Part shown: positions 3,977-37,827 of the stretch, in pieces
How positions within the stretch are numbered: the first letter of the stretch is position 1
Layout: every line of letters starts with the position of its first letter
DNA from: a virus
IMG/VR virus record: IMGVR_UViG_3300048672_000575
Location: 1 to 37,827 of that record
Reading direction: 5' to 3' (one strand)
Length of the DNA stretch: 37,827 bases
The notes under the pieces: model-generated
Told to the model about the DNA's origin: nothing
Databases searched by the model: none
What the model saw: the letters and a program-made list of their open reading frames with translations, nothing else
Program-made: the position numbers and the translations under genes

Positions 3977-4027
3977 GGGCGCGCCATCTTAACTACTGGG
4001 ACACCGATGGGGTGTGACAGCGCGCCC
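3977..4027 (-). promoter_or_regulatory. Nested hairpin in leader of micro-gene chain
   Basis: A perfect 8-bp outer stem, GGGCGCGC (3977-3984) with GCGCGCCC (4020-4027), encloses an inner 5-bp stem, ACACC (4001-4005) with GGTGT (4011-4015). On the minus strand it lies between the 33-aa gene and the start of the 55-aa basic gene and is followed by ACTTTTG. It could be a weak terminator/attenuator or a structured leader. The short T-run argues against strong termination. Confidence 0.4.
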
Positions 4028-4035
4028 GTATGTAC

Positions 4036-4137
4036 CTACTGACCAAGCCCGTACATCAACCACTCGATCATCTTCGGTATCAGATCCAACGCGCCGTGAA
4101 ATGCTAGGCCCGCTAGAAGGAATAGTTTCATGCTCAT
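4036..4137 (-). CDS. 33-aa hydrophobic/amphipathic peptide
   Basis: The frame reads MSMKLFLLAGLAFHGALD and continues to WLMYGLGQ: a hydrophobic helix followed by a second amphipathic one. The ATG at 4137 overlaps the stop of the lipoprotein gene (ATGA); a second ATG two codons later is also possible. Pairing with a lipoprotein gene suggests a membrane location. No known family; too short for confident assignment. Confidence 0.5.
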   Translation of the reverse strand: MSMKLFLLAGLAFHGALDLIPKMIEWLMYGLGQ

Positions 4138-5935: not shown

Positions 5936-6445
5936 TTAGCCCTTCATAAAGTCAGGAAGCTCGTCTTCCTCTAATGTTTTTGGCGTTGGCTGCCCATTGC
6001 CAGCAGGCGTCGCTTTCTTCCCCATCGAGTACCAACCCTTGATCTCATTCTTCGGTCCGTAAGGCTCACCAGTAGCTAGGTTGGTGCCGCTTCCAGGTTC
6101 AACCGTAACCTTGATGATGTGCATCTTCTCCATAAGCTCCTGCGAGCTTGCTGGAATCCCTGGCGGTAATCCGCACGCTTGAGCGAGCGCGCTTAGTTGT
6201 CCACGCCCAATTTGCTGCGCTTTCTCACTTGCGTTCTGAATGTTGAAGTTCACGGTAATCTGCCTTCCCGCGTACTCTTCATCCCAGATTTGCTCCACGA
6301 CTTTAAGGTACTTACCACCCTTGGCCGTGTCCTTAATCTCTGCCGAGATTACCGTTGCAACGTAGCGCCCAGCTGGAAGCGGTTCAAATGTCCCGCCTGG
6401 CTTTACGTTTAGATCCTCAATTACCTGTGCTAAGTCACCGTTCAT
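5936..6445 (-). CDS. DUF669 ssDNA-binding-like protein
   Basis: A 169-residue protein matching phage DUF669 proteins: an N-terminal PLPAGRYVATVISAE strand region, ITVNFNIQNASEKAQQIGRGQLSALAQACG in two parts across residues 65-95, and a flexible Pro/Gly/Thr linker. It ends in the acidic tip LEEDELPDFMKG, which resembles the acidic C-terminal tip of SSB proteins that recruits partners. DUF669 genes typically lie beside Sak4-like ATPases, as here, and are thought to coat ssDNA during annealing. Start ATG at 6445 is preceded by AGGAG that lies inside the 23-bp repeat at 6448-6470. Confidence 0.8.
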   Translation of the reverse strand: MNGDLAQVIEDLNVKPGGTFEPLPAGRYVATVISAEIKDTAKGGKYLKVVEQIWDEEYAGRQITVNFNIQNASEKAQQIGRGQLSALAQACGLPPGIPASSQELMEKMHIIKVTVEPGSGTNLATGEPYGPKNEIKGWYSMGKKATPAGNGQPTPKTLEEDELPDFMKG

Positions 6446-6446
6446 A

Positions 6447-6674
6447 TTATGCTCCTAGTTTAGTTAAATCCTTAATCTCGTCTTTCTTGGATTGCATATC
6501 CTTTTCTATGTCTGCGTTTATCTCTGACGCCTTCCCATGCTTGCCGCAACTAAGGCAGTGGTAGGTGTCCTCGCTCCAGCGAATTATCATTGAGCCAGTT
6601 TTCTCCTCATGAAACGGGCATAGGATAACCTCTCCCGTAGAGTCCGATTTGCTCAAGTCTCGAATGATCGACAT
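6447..6674 (-). CDS. Stand-alone CHC2-type zinc-finger protein
   Basis: A 75-residue protein containing only the zinc-binding motif of DnaG-type primases: CPFH (Cys19, His22), then YHCLSCGKHGK (Cys40, Cys43). The rest is a charged helix. No TOPRIM or helicase domain follows, so it is a detached primase zinc finger or a regulator derived from one. The DUF3987 protein encoded at 8777-10075 could be a partner. The C-terminus DLTKLGA is identical to that of the upstream Sak4-like protein because of the direct repeats flanking this gene. The ribosome site AGGAG also comes from the repeat. Confidence 0.8.
   Translation of the reverse strand: MSIIRDLSKSDSTGEVILCPFHEEKTGSMIIRWSEDTYHCLSCGKHGKASEINADIEKDMQSKKDEIKDLTKLGA
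6448..6470. repeat. 23-bp direct repeat, copy A
   Basis: Identical to 6679-6701. On the minus strand it encodes the last seven residues DLTKLGA of the CHC2 protein, its stop, and the AGGAG ribosome site of the DUF669 gene. Confidence 0.95.
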
Positions 6675-6677
6675 ACG

Positions 6678-7505
6678 CTATGCTCCTAGTTTAGTTAAAT
6701 CTCTTTCTACTTTCACTTCTCCCAAGTCGCCAACGACACGCGCCTTTAGTCCGGTGCGGATAGCGGCGCTTAGTTCGGACCAGCCCTTGAGCTCTCCTGG
6801 TGCGTCTTCTGGGATGTTGATTTGCGGCGGGAGGTTGTAGCTTTCTTTGGTTTCCCAGAAGGGGCGAGGCTTAAGGCGTAATACGCGTTGATTGCTTCCT
6901 TTAAGCCGGATGCTGTCACCTTCGCCTGCTGCAGCTGTTGCAAACTCGAGGAAGCCGACGATATCACAAAACTTGAAAATCTTAGCTCCGCATCGCTTAT
7001 CGACGCCCAAAGAATATTTAGGGTACGAGCCATATTCTGGGTGTTCGACATACTTGGTTTCGACGTGCGAGATGATGACTGGCATAATCTTCTTTTGTTC
7101 ATTTAGTGCTCCTAACCTTGCAAGTATTTCCGTTTCCCATAGTGCTGCAGCCCGCACGAATCCCGAATAGAACGGAAACGCTTTAGGGTGCAGAATGTTA
7201 TCTACACCAGCATCAGCGCACACCTTGCCGTGCACTAGCTTCTCGGCGCTGTCGGCGGTGTCTAGCACTACTGTTTTGTAAGGGTGCTTCTCGGTTGCTA
7301 ACCATTCTAGGATCTCAATCAGCATCCCGTAGCTGTTGCAGATGCCTTCGTGAGTAGCAACGCTTAAGTGATCGTGCCGATCTTCAGTGCGAATGAAAAA
7401 CGGACTAGGGCACGACGCTGCGAACCTACTTTTCCCCGATCCAGGCTGGCCATATACCGCGATTTTCGGGGGCTTTGAGATGCTAGTGCGGATTACTGTG
7501 ATCAT
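6678..7505 (-). CDS. Sak4-like RecA-fold ATPase (recombinase)
   Basis: A 275-residue P-loop protein. Walker A GQPGSGKS lies at 19-26, and VVLDTAD near 80 is the Walker B strand. IISHVETK in the middle fits the sensor region of phage AAA/Sak4 proteins. These RecA-core proteins promote ssDNA annealing and recombination and work with an SSB-like partner, here DUF669, two genes downstream. The protein starts at ATG 7505 and overlaps the preceding 110-aa gene by four bases. The last seven residues duplicate the C-terminus of the CHC2 protein. Family call fairly sure; biochemical activity not shown by sequence. Confidence 0.82.
   Translation of the reverse strand: MITVIRTSISKPPKIAVYGQPGSGKSRFAASCPSPFFIRTEDRHDHLSVATHEGICNSYGMLIEILEWLATEKHPYKTVVLDTADSAEKLVHGKVCADAGVDNILHPKAFPFYSGFVRAAALWETEILARLGALNEQKKIMPVIISHVETKYVEHPEYGSYPKYSLGVDKRCGAKIFKFCDIVGFLEFATAAAGEGDSIRLKGSNQRVLRLKPRPFWETKESYNLPPQINIPEDAPGELKGWSELSAAIRTGLKARVVGDLGEVKVERDLTKLGA
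6679..6701. repeat. 23-bp direct repeat, copy B
   Basis: Identical to 6448-6470. It encodes the DLTKLGA end of the Sak4-like protein and carries the AGGAG site that serves the CHC2 gene start at 6674. Confidence 0.95.
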
Positions 7506-8448: not shown

Positions 8449-8514
8449 TTGACAATGTTTGTAGATTAGTCCACACTATTTGTAGAGTCAATGCCTTTCT
8501 GGAGTTTTTGTAAA
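8449..8514. promoter_or_regulatory. Divergent promoters with tandem 21-bp operator-like repeats
   Basis: Rightward: TTGACA (8449-8454), 17 bases, CACACT (8472-8477). Leftward: TTGACT (8491-8486), 17 bases, TAATCT (8468-8463). Two imperfect 21-bp tandem units (8452-8472 and 8473-8493) each contain TTTGTAGA (8458-8465 and 8479-8486), exactly two helical turns apart and overlapping both promoters. A weaker TTTGTAAA sits at 8507-8514. Beside it lies the HTH gene (8515), so autoregulation is likely. Confidence 0.6.
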
Positions 8515-8754
8515 ATGAGTTTCAAATCGATCGAAGAAATGTTTGCTTCCGCTGGGGGTGCTGTGCACGTCGCTGCTTTCCTCGACCTTAATCAATGGAC
8601 TGTTGAGCGCTGGTTGAAGTACGGAATCCCCGACAAGCACTGGAATAAGCTCGTTAAGCGTTTCGATATATCGATCAGCGATCTCCACAAGCTTTCGCAA
8701 CAAGCGCGTGAGGAGTGGACGCACAAACGCGGGCTCGAGCGGCTTCGTAAATAA
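8515..8754 (+). CDS. Small HTH DNA-binding regulator (Cro/YdaS-like)
   Basis: A 79-residue protein whose core fits a Cro/YdaS-type helix-turn-helix: GGAVHVAAFLDLNQWTVERW, then GIPDKHWNKLVKRFDIS. The second helix (TVERWLKYGIP) matches the recognition helix of YdaS-like phage regulators. It is the only recognisable transcription regulator here and sits beside the repeat-bearing divergent promoter, so it probably controls the early leftward operon and itself. The start ATG at 8515 (GGAG ten bases upstream) is preferred over one eight codons earlier, which lies inside the operator region. No second repressor gene is seen, so a classic lysogeny switch is unlikely. Confidence 0.72.
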   Translation: MSFKSIEEMFASAGGAVHVAAFLDLNQWTVERWLKYGIPDKHWNKLVKRFDISISDLHKLSQQAREEWTHKRGLERLRK

Positions 8755-8776: not shown

Positions 8777-10075
8777 GTGCAAGAGCTATTAGCCACCTGT
8801 CCGGGGCTGGTCGGCGATATTGCCCGTTACCTTAACTACTCGTTGCGTCGTGAGCGCCCTTCCATATGCTTGGCCGCGGCTTTCTCGTTTGTTAGTGCGC
8901 TAATTTCAAAGCGCGTTAACTGCGTATACAATGGCCTCACGACAGAGCCATGTCTATTTGCCGCTACCATTGCAGACACTGGATCGGGCAAAACCCATGC
9001 GCAGAATTTACTTGAAGAGCTCATGATAGATGGTGGCGTTGACGTTGGTCCCGAAGGTTTTCTACTTGGCACACCAGCATCTGATGTTGGGCTACGTACG
9101 GCGCTAGTGCAAAACTCAAGGCGCTTTTTCCCTTGGGATGAGCTGGGGTTCGCGATTAGCTCTTTGTCCGGTAGTAAGAACAGCTGTGAGTCTCAGGTGC
9201 TTCCCACCTTAATGAACCTATATTCAAAAGAGGGAAAGTTTGTCGCTGGGAAGCAATACGCAAAGACAGATCGGGTAGACATCAAAGATCCGCATATAGC
9301 GGTGTTTGGTGCGTCAACACCGGAAAGGTTCTTCGGCGCAATCAACGATAACATGATCCTAGATGGATTCGTTCCGCGAGTGCTTCTGTTCTTTGAGGTT
9401 GGGACATTGAAGCGAAAGCGAGATGACACAATCGCAGCTTCTGCAACGTCTCCTGAGATGCGGAAATCTATAGTCGATGGAATCCGTAACATAGAATGTT
9501 GGTTTACCAATGCTGCGGGAGACCTTGCGGAAGCTGTTCCTAATGCAATGCCTAGAGCTAAGATGCAAATTGAAATTGAGGTTGCTGGGCCTGGGTATCC
9601 TACCTTGGACATCCTAAAAGAATGGGAAGGTATTATCGGTGGGGTAGTCGATGGCAAGAGCATGCCAAAGACTTCTAGAGCTATCTACACGCGAGCTATG
9701 GAGCAGACGCTAAAGGTGTGCCTATGCCTATCAGATTTTAGGTTTTTGAGGTGTCCCATAGCTTCCACCTATTACGCGGTGGATTTTATGGGGACATTGC
9801 TGAAAATAGCTTGTGAGGAATGCAGTAAACATGTACATCAGGATCAGCGGATTCGCGATTACAACGCGCTCAAGGATAAGGTGCTGGGGTTATTCGATGT
9901 CGGCGAAGTTAAAGAACGAAAATGGATCACAGAGCGTACTCGCCGCTGGTGCGACCTTAAAACCCGGAGTGCTATCTATGCTGACCTTGCCGATAGTGGG
10001 CTGTGGCAAGAAGAAGAGTCTTTCAAAGATGAGTTCACTCAGAAAAAATCAACCTTCTTCAGGCGCATGGCCTAG
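8777..10075 (+). CDS. DUF3987-type primase/helicase ATPase
   Basis: A 432-residue P-loop protein of the DUF3987/YfjI type. Walker A ADTGSGKT lies at 66-73; FFPWDELG near 115 supplies the acidic Walker B pair. The C-terminal 80 residues (after HQDQRIRDYNALKDK) look like a small winged-helix or HTH tail. Phage members are linked to replication initiation and can carry primase domains upstream. Here no such domain exists, and the only primase-like piece in the genome is the detached CHC2 finger at 6447-6674. Start GTG at 8777 has GAGGG only three bases upstream, a tight spacing. It directly precedes the iteron-bearing origin candidate, the usual place for an initiator or loader. Confidence 0.8.
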   Translation: MQELLATCPGLVGDIARYLNYSLRRERPSICLAAAFSFVSALISKRVNCVYNGLTTEPCLFAATIADTGSGKTHAQNLLEELMIDGGVDVGPEGFLLGTPASDVGLRTALVQNSRRFFPWDELGFAISSLSGSKNSCESQVLPTLMNLYSKEGKFVAGKQYAKTDRVDIKDPHIAVFGASTPERFFGAINDNMILDGFVPRVLLFFEVGTLKRKRDDTIAASATSPEMRKSIVDGIRNIECWFTNAAGDLAEAVPNAMPRAKMQIEIEVAGPGYPTLDILKEWEGIIGGVVDGKSMPKTSRAIYTRAMEQTLKVCLCLSDFRFLRCPIASTYYAVDFMGTLLKIACEECSKHVHQDQRIRDYNALKDKVLGLFDVGEVKERKWITERTRRWCDLKTRSAIYADLADSGLWQEEESFKDEFTQKKSTFFRRMA

Positions 10076-10110
10076 TCCCTAGCTAAACCGTGTTATAGAC
10101 CGAATTAGCC

Positions 10111-10363
10111 GTTTATTGTACGGTTATTGTACACTTATTACCACTTATTTCCGCGCAAGTGTCGGAAATCATTCAACATATAAAATAAAAGGCATAAAAG
10201 GCAAGGGGGGTATATATATGTGACTTGTTGTCTTGTTTTTCTTTGATATATAGGGGGGGTCTGCCTTTTATTCCTTTTATTATTCTTTCTTTAATAATAT
10301 CACATATATATATACATAATAATAGGTAATAAACGTACAATAAGTGTACAATAAACGTACACC
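10111..10363. other. Candidate replication origin: inverted iteron arrays around an AT-rich core
   Basis: Left array of tandem 10-11-mers: GTTTATTGTAC (10111-10121), GGTTATTGTAC (10122-10132), ACTTATTACC (10133-10142), ACTTATTTCC (10143-10152). The right array is the same in opposite orientation: GGTAATAAAC (10325-10334), GTACAATAAGT (10335-10345), GTACAATAAAC (10346-10356). Inside lies a second inverted repeat, 10184-10203 against 10262-10281, matching at 19 of 20 positions. Inside that are two G-runs (10205-10210, 10253-10259) next to TATATA tracts. No gene occupies it. The layout suits initiator binding and strand opening. Confidence 0.65.
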
Positions 10364-10388
10364 TTTGTTTTAGAACGGGGTTTGGGCT

Positions 10389-10403
10389 CGAGGCATAGCC
10401 TCG
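10389..10403. other. Short perfect hairpin before late genes
   Basis: CGAGGC-ATA-GCCTCG, extended outward by GGGGT (10377-10381) pairing with ACCCC (10406-10410) across an internal loop. There is no T-run after it, so it is not a typical terminator. The rest of 10364-10463 holds nothing I can name. Confidence 0.4.
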
Positions 10404-10463
10404 CTACCCCTGTACCCCCAAAAATCCTTTGCCTTTTCCCCCACTCCGCGCATCATACCCTTC

Positions 10464-10888: not shown

Positions 10889-11143
10889 ATGCCGTTTCAA
10901 AAGGGCCATAAGGGCTTTGGCTCAACTAAACGTAAGCGCGATCAGCTGCTGCGCAAGCTCTTGCCGCTCGAGCCACAAGCTTTGGACGCCTTGAAAGACA
11001 TGCTTACAAACCCCGACGATCGCGCCTTCGCCGTCAAATTCATTCTCGAGAACCTTCACGGGCGCGCACCGCAACGGCTCGAGCACACCGGCGAGGATGG
11101 CAGCCCGCTTGGCCCAATAGTTGCCATAATTAAGGACGCCTAA
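10889..11143 (+). CDS. Putative small terminase subunit
   Basis: An 84-residue basic protein. It begins with MPFQKGHKGFGSTKRKRD, has a helical middle (LEPQALDALKDMLTN, AVKFILENLHG) and ends in a HTGEDGSPLG tail. This tail, joined to a KxILENLHGRAP helix, is typical of short phage proteins preceding large terminases. It is shorter than most TerS proteins (usually 130-180 aa) and lacks an obvious separate oligomerisation domain, so it may be only the DNA-recognition part or an accessory protein. Ribosome site AAGGAA lies before the ATG. The tailspike-like gene starts immediately after its stop. Confidence 0.55.
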   Translation: MPFQKGHKGFGSTKRKRDQLLRKLLPLEPQALDALKDMLTNPDDRAFAVKFILENLHGRAPQRLEHTGEDGSPLGPIVAIIKDA

Positions 11144-12577
11144 ATGGCCACTCCAGCCGAGCTCATGGGGCATTCCCTTGTTGCCCCACTTGCACGCGAT
11201 CTTGGCACTAACGCTATCCAATCCCTCACCGTCGCTGACCTCGTGAACGCCAACACCAAGGGCCAAAACGGTGTGGTTTACACACCGCTAACACTAAACC
11301 AAAACGTTACACTCACCGGCTCACTGCAAATGCTACGCGGCGGCCGCATCACAACCAACGGCCGCACACTAACTATCAACGGCGCGTTTAGCGCTGGCTC
11401 CTACCAAGTCTTCACAACCTCCGGCACCCAAGTGGTGTTCGGACCAAACGCCACACTATTCGTACTGCCCGAGTGGTTCGGCGCAGTTGGCGACGGCACG
11501 ACGGACGACACAACAGCAATCCAAGTCGCTTGGAACGTCGCAACCGCCGCGCGCGTGCCGCTCGTGCTGCAGTGCAAGAAAACCTACCGCATCAGCGCAC
11601 TTACCGCTCCTCAGTACGGCCAGATGATAAGCGACAACGCGCGCCGTTCTTACGCTGTACTCAAAGCCAACAGCGCAAGCGCAATGGTGACACTAAGCGG
11701 CGCTGGCGATGACTTTAACACGTTTAAAGGCATTCAATTCGACGGCAACTCAACAGCTGCAAGTTGCTTGAAAATGAACGCCACCAACTACCCTCTGATT
11801 GAAGACTGCGCCTTCGTCGGCGCTATCAAGCTTGTCGACTCAGCGCTAGGCGCTATCGGCGCTAACTTCCTACGCTGCGAGTTAAACGGTACTAACGGCG
11901 TCACTATCGACTGCGTGTTTCTCTCGCTCGCATCCGTTGGTGTCTATTTCGATAAATGCACGTTCGGCAACACTGCAACTTACGCCATCCGCTCCGACTC
12001 CTCATTCACCGGCGACAATATCAACGTAATCGATTGCATTTTCGGGACGGTCTGTACCGATATGATAAAGCTCGACCGGGCGAACACCGGCGGCACGCAT
12101 GTCAACGCCGTGCTTGCGCGCAACCGTTTCGACGGTGGGCCTAGTAACTCAAATATCAATATCGGCCAATACGTAAACGCTGTCATTCGAGACAACGAAA
12201 TCACGGGCGGCTCAACTTACTCCGTCGTAACAGATGGGTTATTCACACAGATTGTAAATAACGCGTTCACACAAAGCACTAGCGCCGCTATCCGCGTCAC
12301 TTCAAACGCGCAGGACGTATATATCGGTAAGCAGCTATGGGGCTCGCTCGGCGGTGGTAGTTACATCACCGACGCTGGAACGCGCACCATTATCGAGCCA
12401 CAGCAGGAAATCCGCTCGGGTACCACGGCCCAGCGCCCATCTTCCGGACTATCTGCAGCGCATCTACTGGCCGCACAGCATTGGGGACCGTACTTTGACA
12501 CCACGTTAGCAGCCAACGGCAAACCTATTTGGTGGAACGGAGTAATCTGGGTTGACGCAACTGGAGCAGCGGTGTGA
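11144..12577 (+). CDS. Tailspike-like pectate-lyase-fold protein
   Basis: A 477-residue protein. Residues 111-127 carry WFGAVGDGTTDDTTAIQ, the signature that opens right-handed parallel beta-helix tailspikes, after which short strand/turn repeats rich in N, G and V continue to about 410. The C-terminus (GTTAQRPSS, then GPYFDTTL and PIWWNGVIWVDATGA) is a common ending of phage fibres and spikes. The first 110 residues would attach it to the virion. Such proteins bind or degrade surface polysaccharide, so this is the likely host-range determinant. Location is odd: it lies between the small- and large-terminase genes, with the start one base after one and the end overlapping the other by four. 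Its coding strand is strongly C-rich compared with the portal gene. Confidence 0.85.
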   Translation: MATPAELMGHSLVAPLARDLGTNAIQSLTVADLVNANTKGQNGVVYTPLTLNQNVTLTGSLQMLRGGRITTNGRTLTINGAFSAGSYQVFTTSGTQVVFGPNATLFVLPEWFGAVGDGTTDDTTAIQVAWNVATAARVPLVLQCKKTYRISALTAPQYGQMISDNARRSYAVLKANSASAMVTLSGAGDDFNTFKGIQFDGNSTAASCLKMNATNYPLIEDCAFVGAIKLVDSALGAIGANFLRCELNGTNGVTIDCVFLSLASVGVYFDKCTFGNTATYAIRSDSSFTGDNINVIDCIFGTVCTDMIKLDRANTGGTHVNAVLARNRFDGGPSNSNINIGQYVNAVIRDNEITGGSTYSVVTDGLFTQIVNNAFTQSTSAAIRVTSNAQDVYIGKQLWGSLGGGSYITDAGTRTIIEPQQEIRSGTTAQRPSSGLSAAHLLAAQHWGPYFDTTLAANGKPIWWNGVIWVDATGAAV

Positions 12578-14076
12578 GAGAATGCACGATTGAACTACCG
12601 CGCTTTCACGCTAAACAACAGCTTGCTTTTGACTCGCCTGCTACCGACTTGCTGTTCGGCGGTGCGACTCGAGGCGGCAAATCCTTCTTTGTTCGTAAGG
12701 CGCTAATCCTCTGGTGCTCCCAGATTCCAGGGCTACAGTGCGATATCTTTCGCCTACACTTTGACGACGTGATAGGGGAGAACATGGAAGGTGAAACATC
12801 CTTCCCGAATCTCCTTCACGCCTGGAAAATGCAAGAGCTTGTCAAAATCAACCAAACCGAAATCAAGTTCTGGAACGATAGCGCCATCTACCTCGAGCAC
12901 TGCGCAGATGATTCTGTCATGTCTAAGCATCAAGGTATCGCACGGCATGTGCGCGTATTCTCCGAGTCTACGCAGATTCTCCCACACCGTATCGAGTGGC
13001 TTACGCGCTGGGTTACGATGTCCGAAGAGATGAAATCGCGCGTTCCCGAACGTTGGAAAGGGCGATTTCCGAAGGTTATTCACGTCACAAACCCAATCGG
13101 CGTATCAGCCAACTACTATAAGCGAAACTACGTCCAAGCCCGGGAACCGTACAAGATTGAGCAAGTTGGCGCATGGCAACGGCAGTACATCCCAGCGCTA
13201 GTCGAAGACAATCCAAGCGAAAACGCTGAAATCACCCGCCAACGCTTTGGCACCGGTGACGCTGCCGTAGCGGACGCAATGCTTAACGCCAACTGGAACG
13301 CGCTGATTGGTGAGTTCTTCCCCGAATGGGACGAGAATAGGCACGTCGTTACCGACTTCTACCCACCTTCGCACTGGTTTAGGTTTCGCGGCTTTGACTG
13401 GGGTACAGCTGAACCATTCTGCGTGCTATGGGCTGCAGTTAGCGACGGGGAACCCTTTAAAGACTCAGATGGCCACGAACGCTGGTTCCCGCGCGGTGCT
13501 ATCGTTATCTATAACGAATGGTACGGCTGCGACCAACAAGACCCAAGTAAGGGCAACCGCATGCGGAATGAAGACATCGCAGCCGGAATCTTGGCGCGCT
13601 CCGAGTATGAGCATCGCGGTGTTGTTACCCTTACCGACTCGCTCCCCTTCCAGGACCGTGGCGGCGATACAATTGCGCAAGTATTCCAGCGCGCAGGCGT
13701 TATCCTAACCCTTGGCGACACATCGCGCGTTACCGGCTGGTCGCGCATGCGGGACATGCTTATAGGCAAGGAAATCGATAGCAACGCACCGCGTGTGCCC
13801 ATGATTTACTTTTGCGCGTGCTGCAAGTACTGCCGCGATTACATCCCGGCGCTACCGCGACACCCTTCCGAGACTAAGAAACAAGACGCTGCAGAGCACG
13901 GAGAAGCGACGCACGCGCCTGACACCGTGCGCCTAATCTGCATGGCGCATACCCATGCCGTCATCAAAGACAGAATTGAACCAATTGATAGTAGGGTGCA
14001 AAAAGAGCTTAATAGTCATAAGCCCACAATAAAGAAGATTCTGAGCCACGTTGGAGGCCCGCGTATATGGCAGTAA
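12574..14076 (+). CDS. terL: Large terminase subunit (packaging ATPase/nuclease)
   Basis: A 500-residue TerL. Walker A GGATRGGKS is at 29-37, just after an LAFDS adenine-contact segment. VRVFSES near 130 is the Walker B strand. The C-terminal RNase H-like nuclease is visible as FRFRGFDWGTAEPF (first catalytic Asp), TLTDSLPFQDRGG, and DTVRL near the end. It cuts and pumps DNA into the prohead through the portal. A Cys cluster (CACCKYC) near residue 410 is extra. Start GTG at 12574 overlaps the tailspike stop, with GGAG eight bases before. Its end overlaps the portal gene by ten bases. Confidence 0.92.
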   Translation: MRECTIELPRFHAKQQLAFDSPATDLLFGGATRGGKSFFVRKALILWCSQIPGLQCDIFRLHFDDVIGENMEGETSFPNLLHAWKMQELVKINQTEIKFWNDSAIYLEHCADDSVMSKHQGIARHVRVFSESTQILPHRIEWLTRWVTMSEEMKSRVPERWKGRFPKVIHVTNPIGVSANYYKRNYVQAREPYKIEQVGAWQRQYIPALVEDNPSENAEITRQRFGTGDAAVADAMLNANWNALIGEFFPEWDENRHVVTDFYPPSHWFRFRGFDWGTAEPFCVLWAAVSDGEPFKDSDGHERWFPRGAIVIYNEWYGCDQQDPSKGNRMRNEDIAAGILARSEYEHRGVVTLTDSLPFQDRGGDTIAQVFQRAGVILTLGDTSRVTGWSRMRDMLIGKEIDSNAPRVPMIYFCACCKYCRDYIPALPRHPSETKKQDAAEHGEATHAPDTVRLICMAHTHAVIKDRIEPIDSRVQKELNSHKPTIKKILSHVGGPRIWQ

Positions 14077-37480: not shown

Positions 37481-37712
37481 CGCTCGCCAACTGGTTCGCT
37501 GTAATCTTCTCATTATCAGCAGAAAACTTAGAGCACCACGCATTGCCATCGACAGGCGCGAAGCTACTCATGATATTTGCATTGCCCATGATTTTGCCCG
37601 GCACTAGAAACACCTTTGGCGGATCGTAGTGGCAAGCACCCTGCGACGATCCTTGTGTGTCGACACCCCAGAATTTACAGTTCTTACAGCGTTGCAATCC
37701 TTGCTCTGACAT
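37461..37712 (-). CDS. Small Cys-rich phage protein, complete (short allele)
   Basis: An 83-residue protein with CKNCKFW (Cys9, Cys12), GACHYDPPKVF (Cys27) and NAWCSKF (Cys60), the spacing of a small zinc-binding phage family in which CxNC-x2-(W/F), C-x3-PP and WC-x-x-F are conserved. Function unknown. ATG 37712 is preceded by AAAGGAGAG and lies one base after the VRR-NUC stop. It is the last gene of the leftward operon and faces the last rightward gene. The left window end carries the beginning of a variant with four extra residues after MSEQ. Confidence 0.7.
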   Translation of the reverse strand: MSEQGLQRCKNCKFWGVDTQGSSQGACHYDPPKVFLVPGKIMGNANIMSSFAPVDGNAWCSKFSADNEKITANQLASGQLVTS

Positions 37713-37827
37713 TTTACATCTCTCCTTTGATGTACTTCTTAAAAATCTCGATTGCCTCATCGGCAGAATATGCAACCCGCACGCAGTGCTTAAGCAGGTG
37801 GAGGATCTCTATCATCGTTGCTTGAGC
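37680..37827. repeat. Right copy of terminal direct repeat
   Basis: 37701-37827 equals 34-160 exactly; 37680-37700 matches 1-33 except for one substitution and a 12-base deletion. Confidence 0.9.
37714..37827 (-). CDS. VRR-NUC nuclease, 3' part (duplicate of 47-160)
   Basis: The last 37 residues plus stop of the VRR-NUC gene, repeated because the two ends of the window overlap. Not a second gene. Confidence 0.9.
   Translation of the reverse strand, partial: AQATMIEILHLLKHCVRVAYSADEAIEIFKKYIKGEM

Follow-up and report, generated by a model that had tools for sequence, protein, structure and literature searches.

The sequence analysed here, referred to as the window, was the whole of the IMG/VR virus record IMGVR_UViG_3300048672_000575 (positions 1-37,827). 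It is probably a complete genome with overlapping ends, since its first 160 nt (1-160) match its last 148 nt (37680-37827), save for a single base and a 12-nt difference; such an overlap would escape a test for exact end repeats. The gene for a DUF3987 helicase is followed by a gap of 388 bp (10076-10463) between its stop codon and the next candidate gene (10464), which is the largest gene-free stretch of the window going by the list of open reading frames. Nearly all of the first 280 bp of this gap is spanned by a palindrome (10109-10358), a single large unit with inner structure. The features of the palindrome and of the genes around it are collected in Table 1.

Table 1. Features of the replication region and of the palindrome following the helicase gene
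Feature	Position	Strand	Description
DUF669 single-strand DNA-binding protein	5936-6445	-	PF05037, E 1e-12; phrog_2300/6015
CHC2 zinc-finger fragment, DnaG-type primase	6447-6674	-	75 aa; PF01807, E 1.4e-11
Sak4-like single-strand annealing ATPase	6678-7505	-	phrog_124, E 4.2e-35; PF13479
Small HTH (Cro/YdaS-like) protein	8491-8754	+	87 aa; phrog_8008 DNA-binding protein, E 2.1e-6; weak YdaS match
DUF3987 ATPase/helicase, proposed initiator	8777-10075	+	432 aa; PF13148; phrog_3022; predicted MCM-like fold
Outer left array	10109-10149	-	Four units AATAANNGK at 10109, 10120, 10131, 10141; spacing 11, 11, 10; outward
Inner left array	10184-10201	+	Two units, AATAAAAGG and CATAAAAGG; 9-bp spacing; inward; +109/+118 from the stop codon
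Centre	10204-10261		58 nt; two G-runs and TATATA tracts
Inner right array	10264-10281	-	Two units, both AATAAAAGG; 9-bp spacing; inward; about +190/+199
A+T stretch	10282-10327		85% A+T; candidate unwinding element
Outer right array	10318-10358	+	Four units at 10318, 10328, 10339, 10350; spacing 10, 11, 11; mirrors the outer left array
Terminase large subunit	12574-14076		2.2 kb downstream of the palindrome

The outer arms of the palindrome (10110-10149 and 10318-10357; 40 nt) are 85% complementary, and in the inner arms (10184-10203 and 10262-10281) 19 of 20 nt are complementary (95%). The best ungapped inverted-repeat score was 25, whereas 300 shuffles averaged 9.0 and never exceeded 12.5, and among 270-nt tiles the palindrome was the strongest inverted-repeat place of the window, with no other tile near it. 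None of 1000 shuffles matched the 11-bp periodicity of either outer array, and the region folded as single-stranded DNA with a z of -6.8. The coordinates and repeats given in the initial annotation are correct. The A+T stretch falls within the A+T-richest 100 nt of the genome (80% A+T, from 10276).

On each side, the inner inverted repeat consists of two tandem copies of a 9-bp unit, (A/C)ATAAAAGG, and thus forms a mirrored tandem array in its own right; the window has no other mirrored tandem of 9-bp units. The outer left units, read on the other strand, are AATAAACGG, AATAACCGT, AATAAGTGT, and AATAAGTGG, and the outer right units are AATAATAGG, AATAAACGT, AATAAGTGT, and AATAAACGT. The two repeats had been annotated as different; both are present as described, but all twelve units, inner and outer, also fit a single 9-bp consensus, [AC]ATAANNG[GT], arranged as four outward and two inward sites followed by two inward and four outward sites. 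This consensus, which was picked after the data were seen, has 12 sites in 10076-10463 versus seven in the remaining 37.4 kb; when this segment was shuffled, the sites averaged 0.64 and never numbered more than 4. Because the consensus is post hoc, and because 3.6% of the permutations of the inner unit would fit the outer core too, so that the shared core is perhaps partly due to chance, it is no more than plausible that one protein reads both tiers. A looser array score that mixed the tiers was not significant for the window itself (reached by 8 of 60 shuffles), precisely because of this mixing.

To the right of the outer array, a perfect short hairpin (CGAGGC-ATA-GCCTCG, 10389-10403) is followed by C-rich DNA; it is possibly a terminator or a priming site.

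The 432-aa product of the helicase gene matches DUF3987 (PF13148) with an E of 6.7e-9 and 35.8 bits, above the curated cut-off of 27, over 54 residues only, and phrog_3022, the helicase part of phage primases, with an E of 1.5e-34. Together with phrog_3022, structure matches to DUF3987 proteins support the PF13148 assignment. DUF3987 was predicted to be a helicase from its company by Kazlauskas and co-workers (PMC5862659). The protein begins with its helicase region and has no counterpart of the primase region found at the N-terminus of its relatives. An AF2 model based on an alignment of 67 relatives reached a pLDDT of 73.5 and a pTM of 0.71, and residues 6-354 were matched to MCM ATPase domains (Foldseek, VIA-align; Z 17.0, rmsd 3.9, 276 aligned). 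Going by this model, the helicase is of the MCM-like/AAA+ hexameric kind; a PDB profile search by sequence gave no match.

Upstream of the helicase gene, on the opposite strand, are the genes for the DUF669 protein, the CHC2 fragment, and Sak4, while the small HTH gene directly precedes it. The product of the latter also has a Cro-like match in Sinorhizobium phage phi3LM21 (E 2e-3), and by synteny the gene stands where relatives have a small HTH gene ahead of their primase-helicase gene. The order of small HTH gene, helicase gene, and gap, beside the DUF669 and Sak4 genes, is common to several relatives, and the module order recurs in phages of Stenotrophomonas, Pseudomonas, Klebsiella, Sphingomonas, Brenneria, and others. 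The stand-alone CHC2 zinc finger adjoins Sak4, while the helicase has no primase domain, and the phage may use a split or a host primase. No family A or B polymerase was found in the genome and, as the genome is probably complete, the phage would depend on the polymerase of its host.

The recurrence of the arrays was evaluated in annotated phage loci with DUF3987 helicases and in 80 IMG/VR loci, whose helicases are 16-29% identical to that of the window. Of 95 loci, 22 had mirrored arrays (score of at least 6) in the 0-350 nt that follow the helicase stop codon; the remaining 73 had no array in these first 350 nt with this detector. In the other 350-nt bins, from -4.2 to +3.1 kb, the same score was mostly reached by 0-3% of the loci, and at most distances by about 1%, with the exception of 4.8% at +1.05 kb and 3.6% at +3.15 kb. 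At a score of at least 8, the counts were 10 of 98 downstream regions (the window included) versus 8 of 2046 control tiles. These counts are not fully independent, because some loci are close to each other (L103 and L105). In a few loci with mirrored tandems elsewhere, these are located another 0.7-2 kb downstream, as would result from an insertion of genes. An iteron origin with mirrored arrays was considered unusual for a podovirus-like phage in the initial annotation; the setting is not unusual for this helicase, as nearly a quarter of the loci have mirrored arrays at this position. A smaller second excess (9.4%, 5 of 53) was also observed about 3.5 kb after the helicase stop codon in the DUF3987 loci L046-L150.

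The arrays of the relatives share a geometry, with sites around +10 to +45 and +75 to +115 on the left and around +145 to +220 on the right, a spacing mostly of 8-10 bp that peaks at 9 bp, and a centre mostly of 45-105 nt. The inner repeat of the window fits this family geometry in both its site positions and its centre. The outer 11-bp tier, on the other hand, is unusual, and no counterpart of it was seen in the DUF3987 family. The repeated word differs by lineage: it is TGTTTTCGG in Achromobacter phages (LB5 and Axy19, 99% identical, have the same word), GTTGTATG in Kharn, TTCTAATG in Birtae, TATAATGG in several IMG/VR contigs, GGGGATAG in Bhz54 and locus L123, and TATAAGG in Halfdan. In the 250 nt after the stop codon, the Sphingomonas phages Birtae (L064) and Kharn (L067) have in common a 22-nt spacer between their arrays, CTGAAACCCGCAGAAAACCGCG, and yet different words. 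Judged from the sequences compared, the word changes between lineages and the geometry stays. The relatives do not follow the expectation of kept units and drifting spacers. Another common spacer, GGGCTAAGTGCCTGATTTA, was observed in Eidolon (L050) and the Achromobacter phages.

No close relative of the phage with this region was found by single-protein and terminase searches. The locus L004/L154 has structural genes that match those of the window (terminase 53%, portal 55%, capsid 77%), and in the part of it examined there was no helicase match and no mirrored array.

Three other functions can be weighed. The phage encodes a Cro/YdaS-like HTH protein, and it, or another repressor, could bind the arrays as an operator or control region for the genes from 10464 on; the TGTAC-N7-GTACA junctions of the outer arrays do resemble dimer operators, and some 11-bp RTAC arrays of other viral contigs stand just before genes. 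Nevertheless, promoter-like sites in the region did not exceed chance (one found, 1.4 expected), the arrays of relatives come after the helicase gene whatever gene is next, and an operator would not need the symmetry about an A+T and G-run centre, so that we regard this reading of the whole region as unlikely. Within an origin, the outer arrays by themselves could nonetheless act as operators, or they could be sites of another protein.

A packaging site (pac or cos recognition), with repeats bound by the small terminase, would be in keeping with the downstream terminase gene and with an 84-aa ORF (10889-11143) that reads like a small terminase, although no family match backs it. As the arrays of relatives follow the helicase gene in replication modules with no adjacent terminase gene, such a site is very improbable. 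Even less probable is an attP, in which arm-type sites for an integrase would flank a core. The size of about 250 bp and the inverted arm repeats would be similar, and in one contig (L012) three TTATTGTAC units (4015-4049), which are probably attP arm sites, directly follow a tyrosine-integrase-like gene. In the probably complete record of this phage, however, a PF00589 profile search for a tyrosine integrase was empty (controls were positive) and no tRNA gene was found; moreover, the DUF3987 phages with this layout include plaque formers isolated from sewage. None of these three readings accounts for the presence of the arrays behind this helicase gene in phages whose neighbouring genes otherwise differ.

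We consider it likely, on the basis of the anatomy, the recurrence, and the predicted fold, that the palindrome region is the replication origin of the phage, of a kind in which the helicase would be the initiator. The initial proposal of an origin is thus retained as the best-supported reading, without the unusual setting, the foreign type of initiator, and the kept units that had been attached to it. Counting against an origin here, the GC skew does not switch cleanly at 10.2 kb, and the minimum of the cumulative skew lies near 14 kb.

The iteron origins of plasmids and lambda-type phages likewise have short sites in tandem next to A+T-rich DNA. In those origins the initiator is a Rep or O protein, which recruits the helicase, whereas here the helicase itself is the candidate initiator. 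The latter had been described as not a known iteron binder; the SaPI Rep and SCCmec Cch2 helicases, however, use their C-terminal domains to bind iterons that lie immediately 3' of the genes encoding them, and two helicase hexamers have been proposed for these origins (PMC7581432). The related protein Cch is described as MCM-like (PMC7581432; title of Mir-Sanchis 2016 as cited in PMC5862659). As in SaPI Rep-ori and SCCmec Cch2, the short repeats of the window lie in the gap directly 3' of the gene for the candidate initiator helicase. Differently from them, the helicase is a DUF3987 protein of a whole phage, and not one of the other helicase families of satellites and islands of Gram-positives, the word is another one, and there are two mirrored tiers.

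A large stem-loop 3' of the replication gene is likewise present both here and in pRN1, where a 100-bp stem-loop just 3' of the primase-helicase gene is needed for replication, the primase-helicase has a C-terminal winged helix, and the operon contains a small regulator gene (PMC4234260). For Bordetella phage BIP-1, a stem-loop origin of this kind was proposed and no iterons were reported in that work (PMC4234260). We found, 465-570 nt after the replication gene of BIP-1 (L151:2100-2210), two pairs of 9-bp units, GTTTGCCTC, that mirror each other across a 70-nt gap, which is the plan of the inner repeat of the window; these units are presumably the proposed stem-loop. Unlike the SF3 helicases with fused primase of pRN1 and BIP-1, the DUF3987 helicase of the window has no fused primase domain. 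The alpha protein of phage P4, also a multifunctional replication protein, binds origin repeats through a winged helix, as told in PMC4234260. It differs, in this comparison by description, in having a TOPRIM primase fused to the helicase.

As to which part of the helicase would recognize the word, word similarity followed overall helicase similarity with a rho of 0.69 (18 loci, shared ancestry ignored), and among windows along the helicase the best was a C-terminal one containing the conserved RRxGATxALK stretch (rho 0.65, partial 0.29; 18 loci). This is suggestive of the C-terminal part as the reader, in agreement with SaPI Rep and Cch2, whose C-terminal domains bind downstream iterons. Because the C-terminal 75 residues of the window's protein are poorly modelled (pLDDT mostly <50), a reader domain is inferred there from the conserved sequence of relatives.

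In the mechanism that we propose, the DUF3987 protein would recognize the repeated word, most likely through its C-terminal domain, and one helicase oligomer would assemble on each half of the mirror. The pair would then open A+T-rich DNA between or beside the inner arrays, either at 10282-10327 or in the TATATA-containing centre, and two forks would leave in opposite directions, with synthesis by the host polymerase helped by the phage single-strand DNA-binding protein and primase pieces. More tentatively, DUF3987 phages may share a class of origin, in which mirrored arrays of about 9 bp located 3' of the helicase gene would load two MCM-like helicases head to head without a separate loader, and in which the word would be rewritten together with the C-terminus while the geometry stays; the window would then be a variant with outward arrays framing the inward ones. 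The open-access papers searched gave no account of mirrored arrays as a feature common to DUF3987 phages, and for most phages outside the model systems the origin has not been located. If such a class exists, the origin and the recognition word of many DUF3987 phages could be read directly from sequence, and pairs such as Kharn and Birtae, with the same spacer and different words, would let the co-change of initiator and site be tested. With an MCM-like helicase acting on a mirrored origin, such a phage would also offer a small model of DNA opening by MCM-type double hexamers.

The outer 11-bp unit was also searched for in other DNA, and most matches to its pattern were coding or A+T-rich arrays upstream of genes. 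An A+T-rich phage contig with SSB-like and recombination genes (L005) has seven to eight tandem 11-bp units of the GTACGTTTATT type at 100-190, beside TATATATATA and a C-run, and ends just past the array; its longer ORFs include no helicase of the DUF3987 kind. Two bacterial matches (L152 and L153) have no replication context. Because of the coding or upstream location of most matches, the lack of such a helicase in L005, and the lack of context in the bacterial matches, the outer unit alone proves little. In three viral contigs (L034, L035, and L041), short tandem 11-bp arrays resembling GTATAATTA are located just upstream of genes, where they are perhaps operators or repeated -10 elements.
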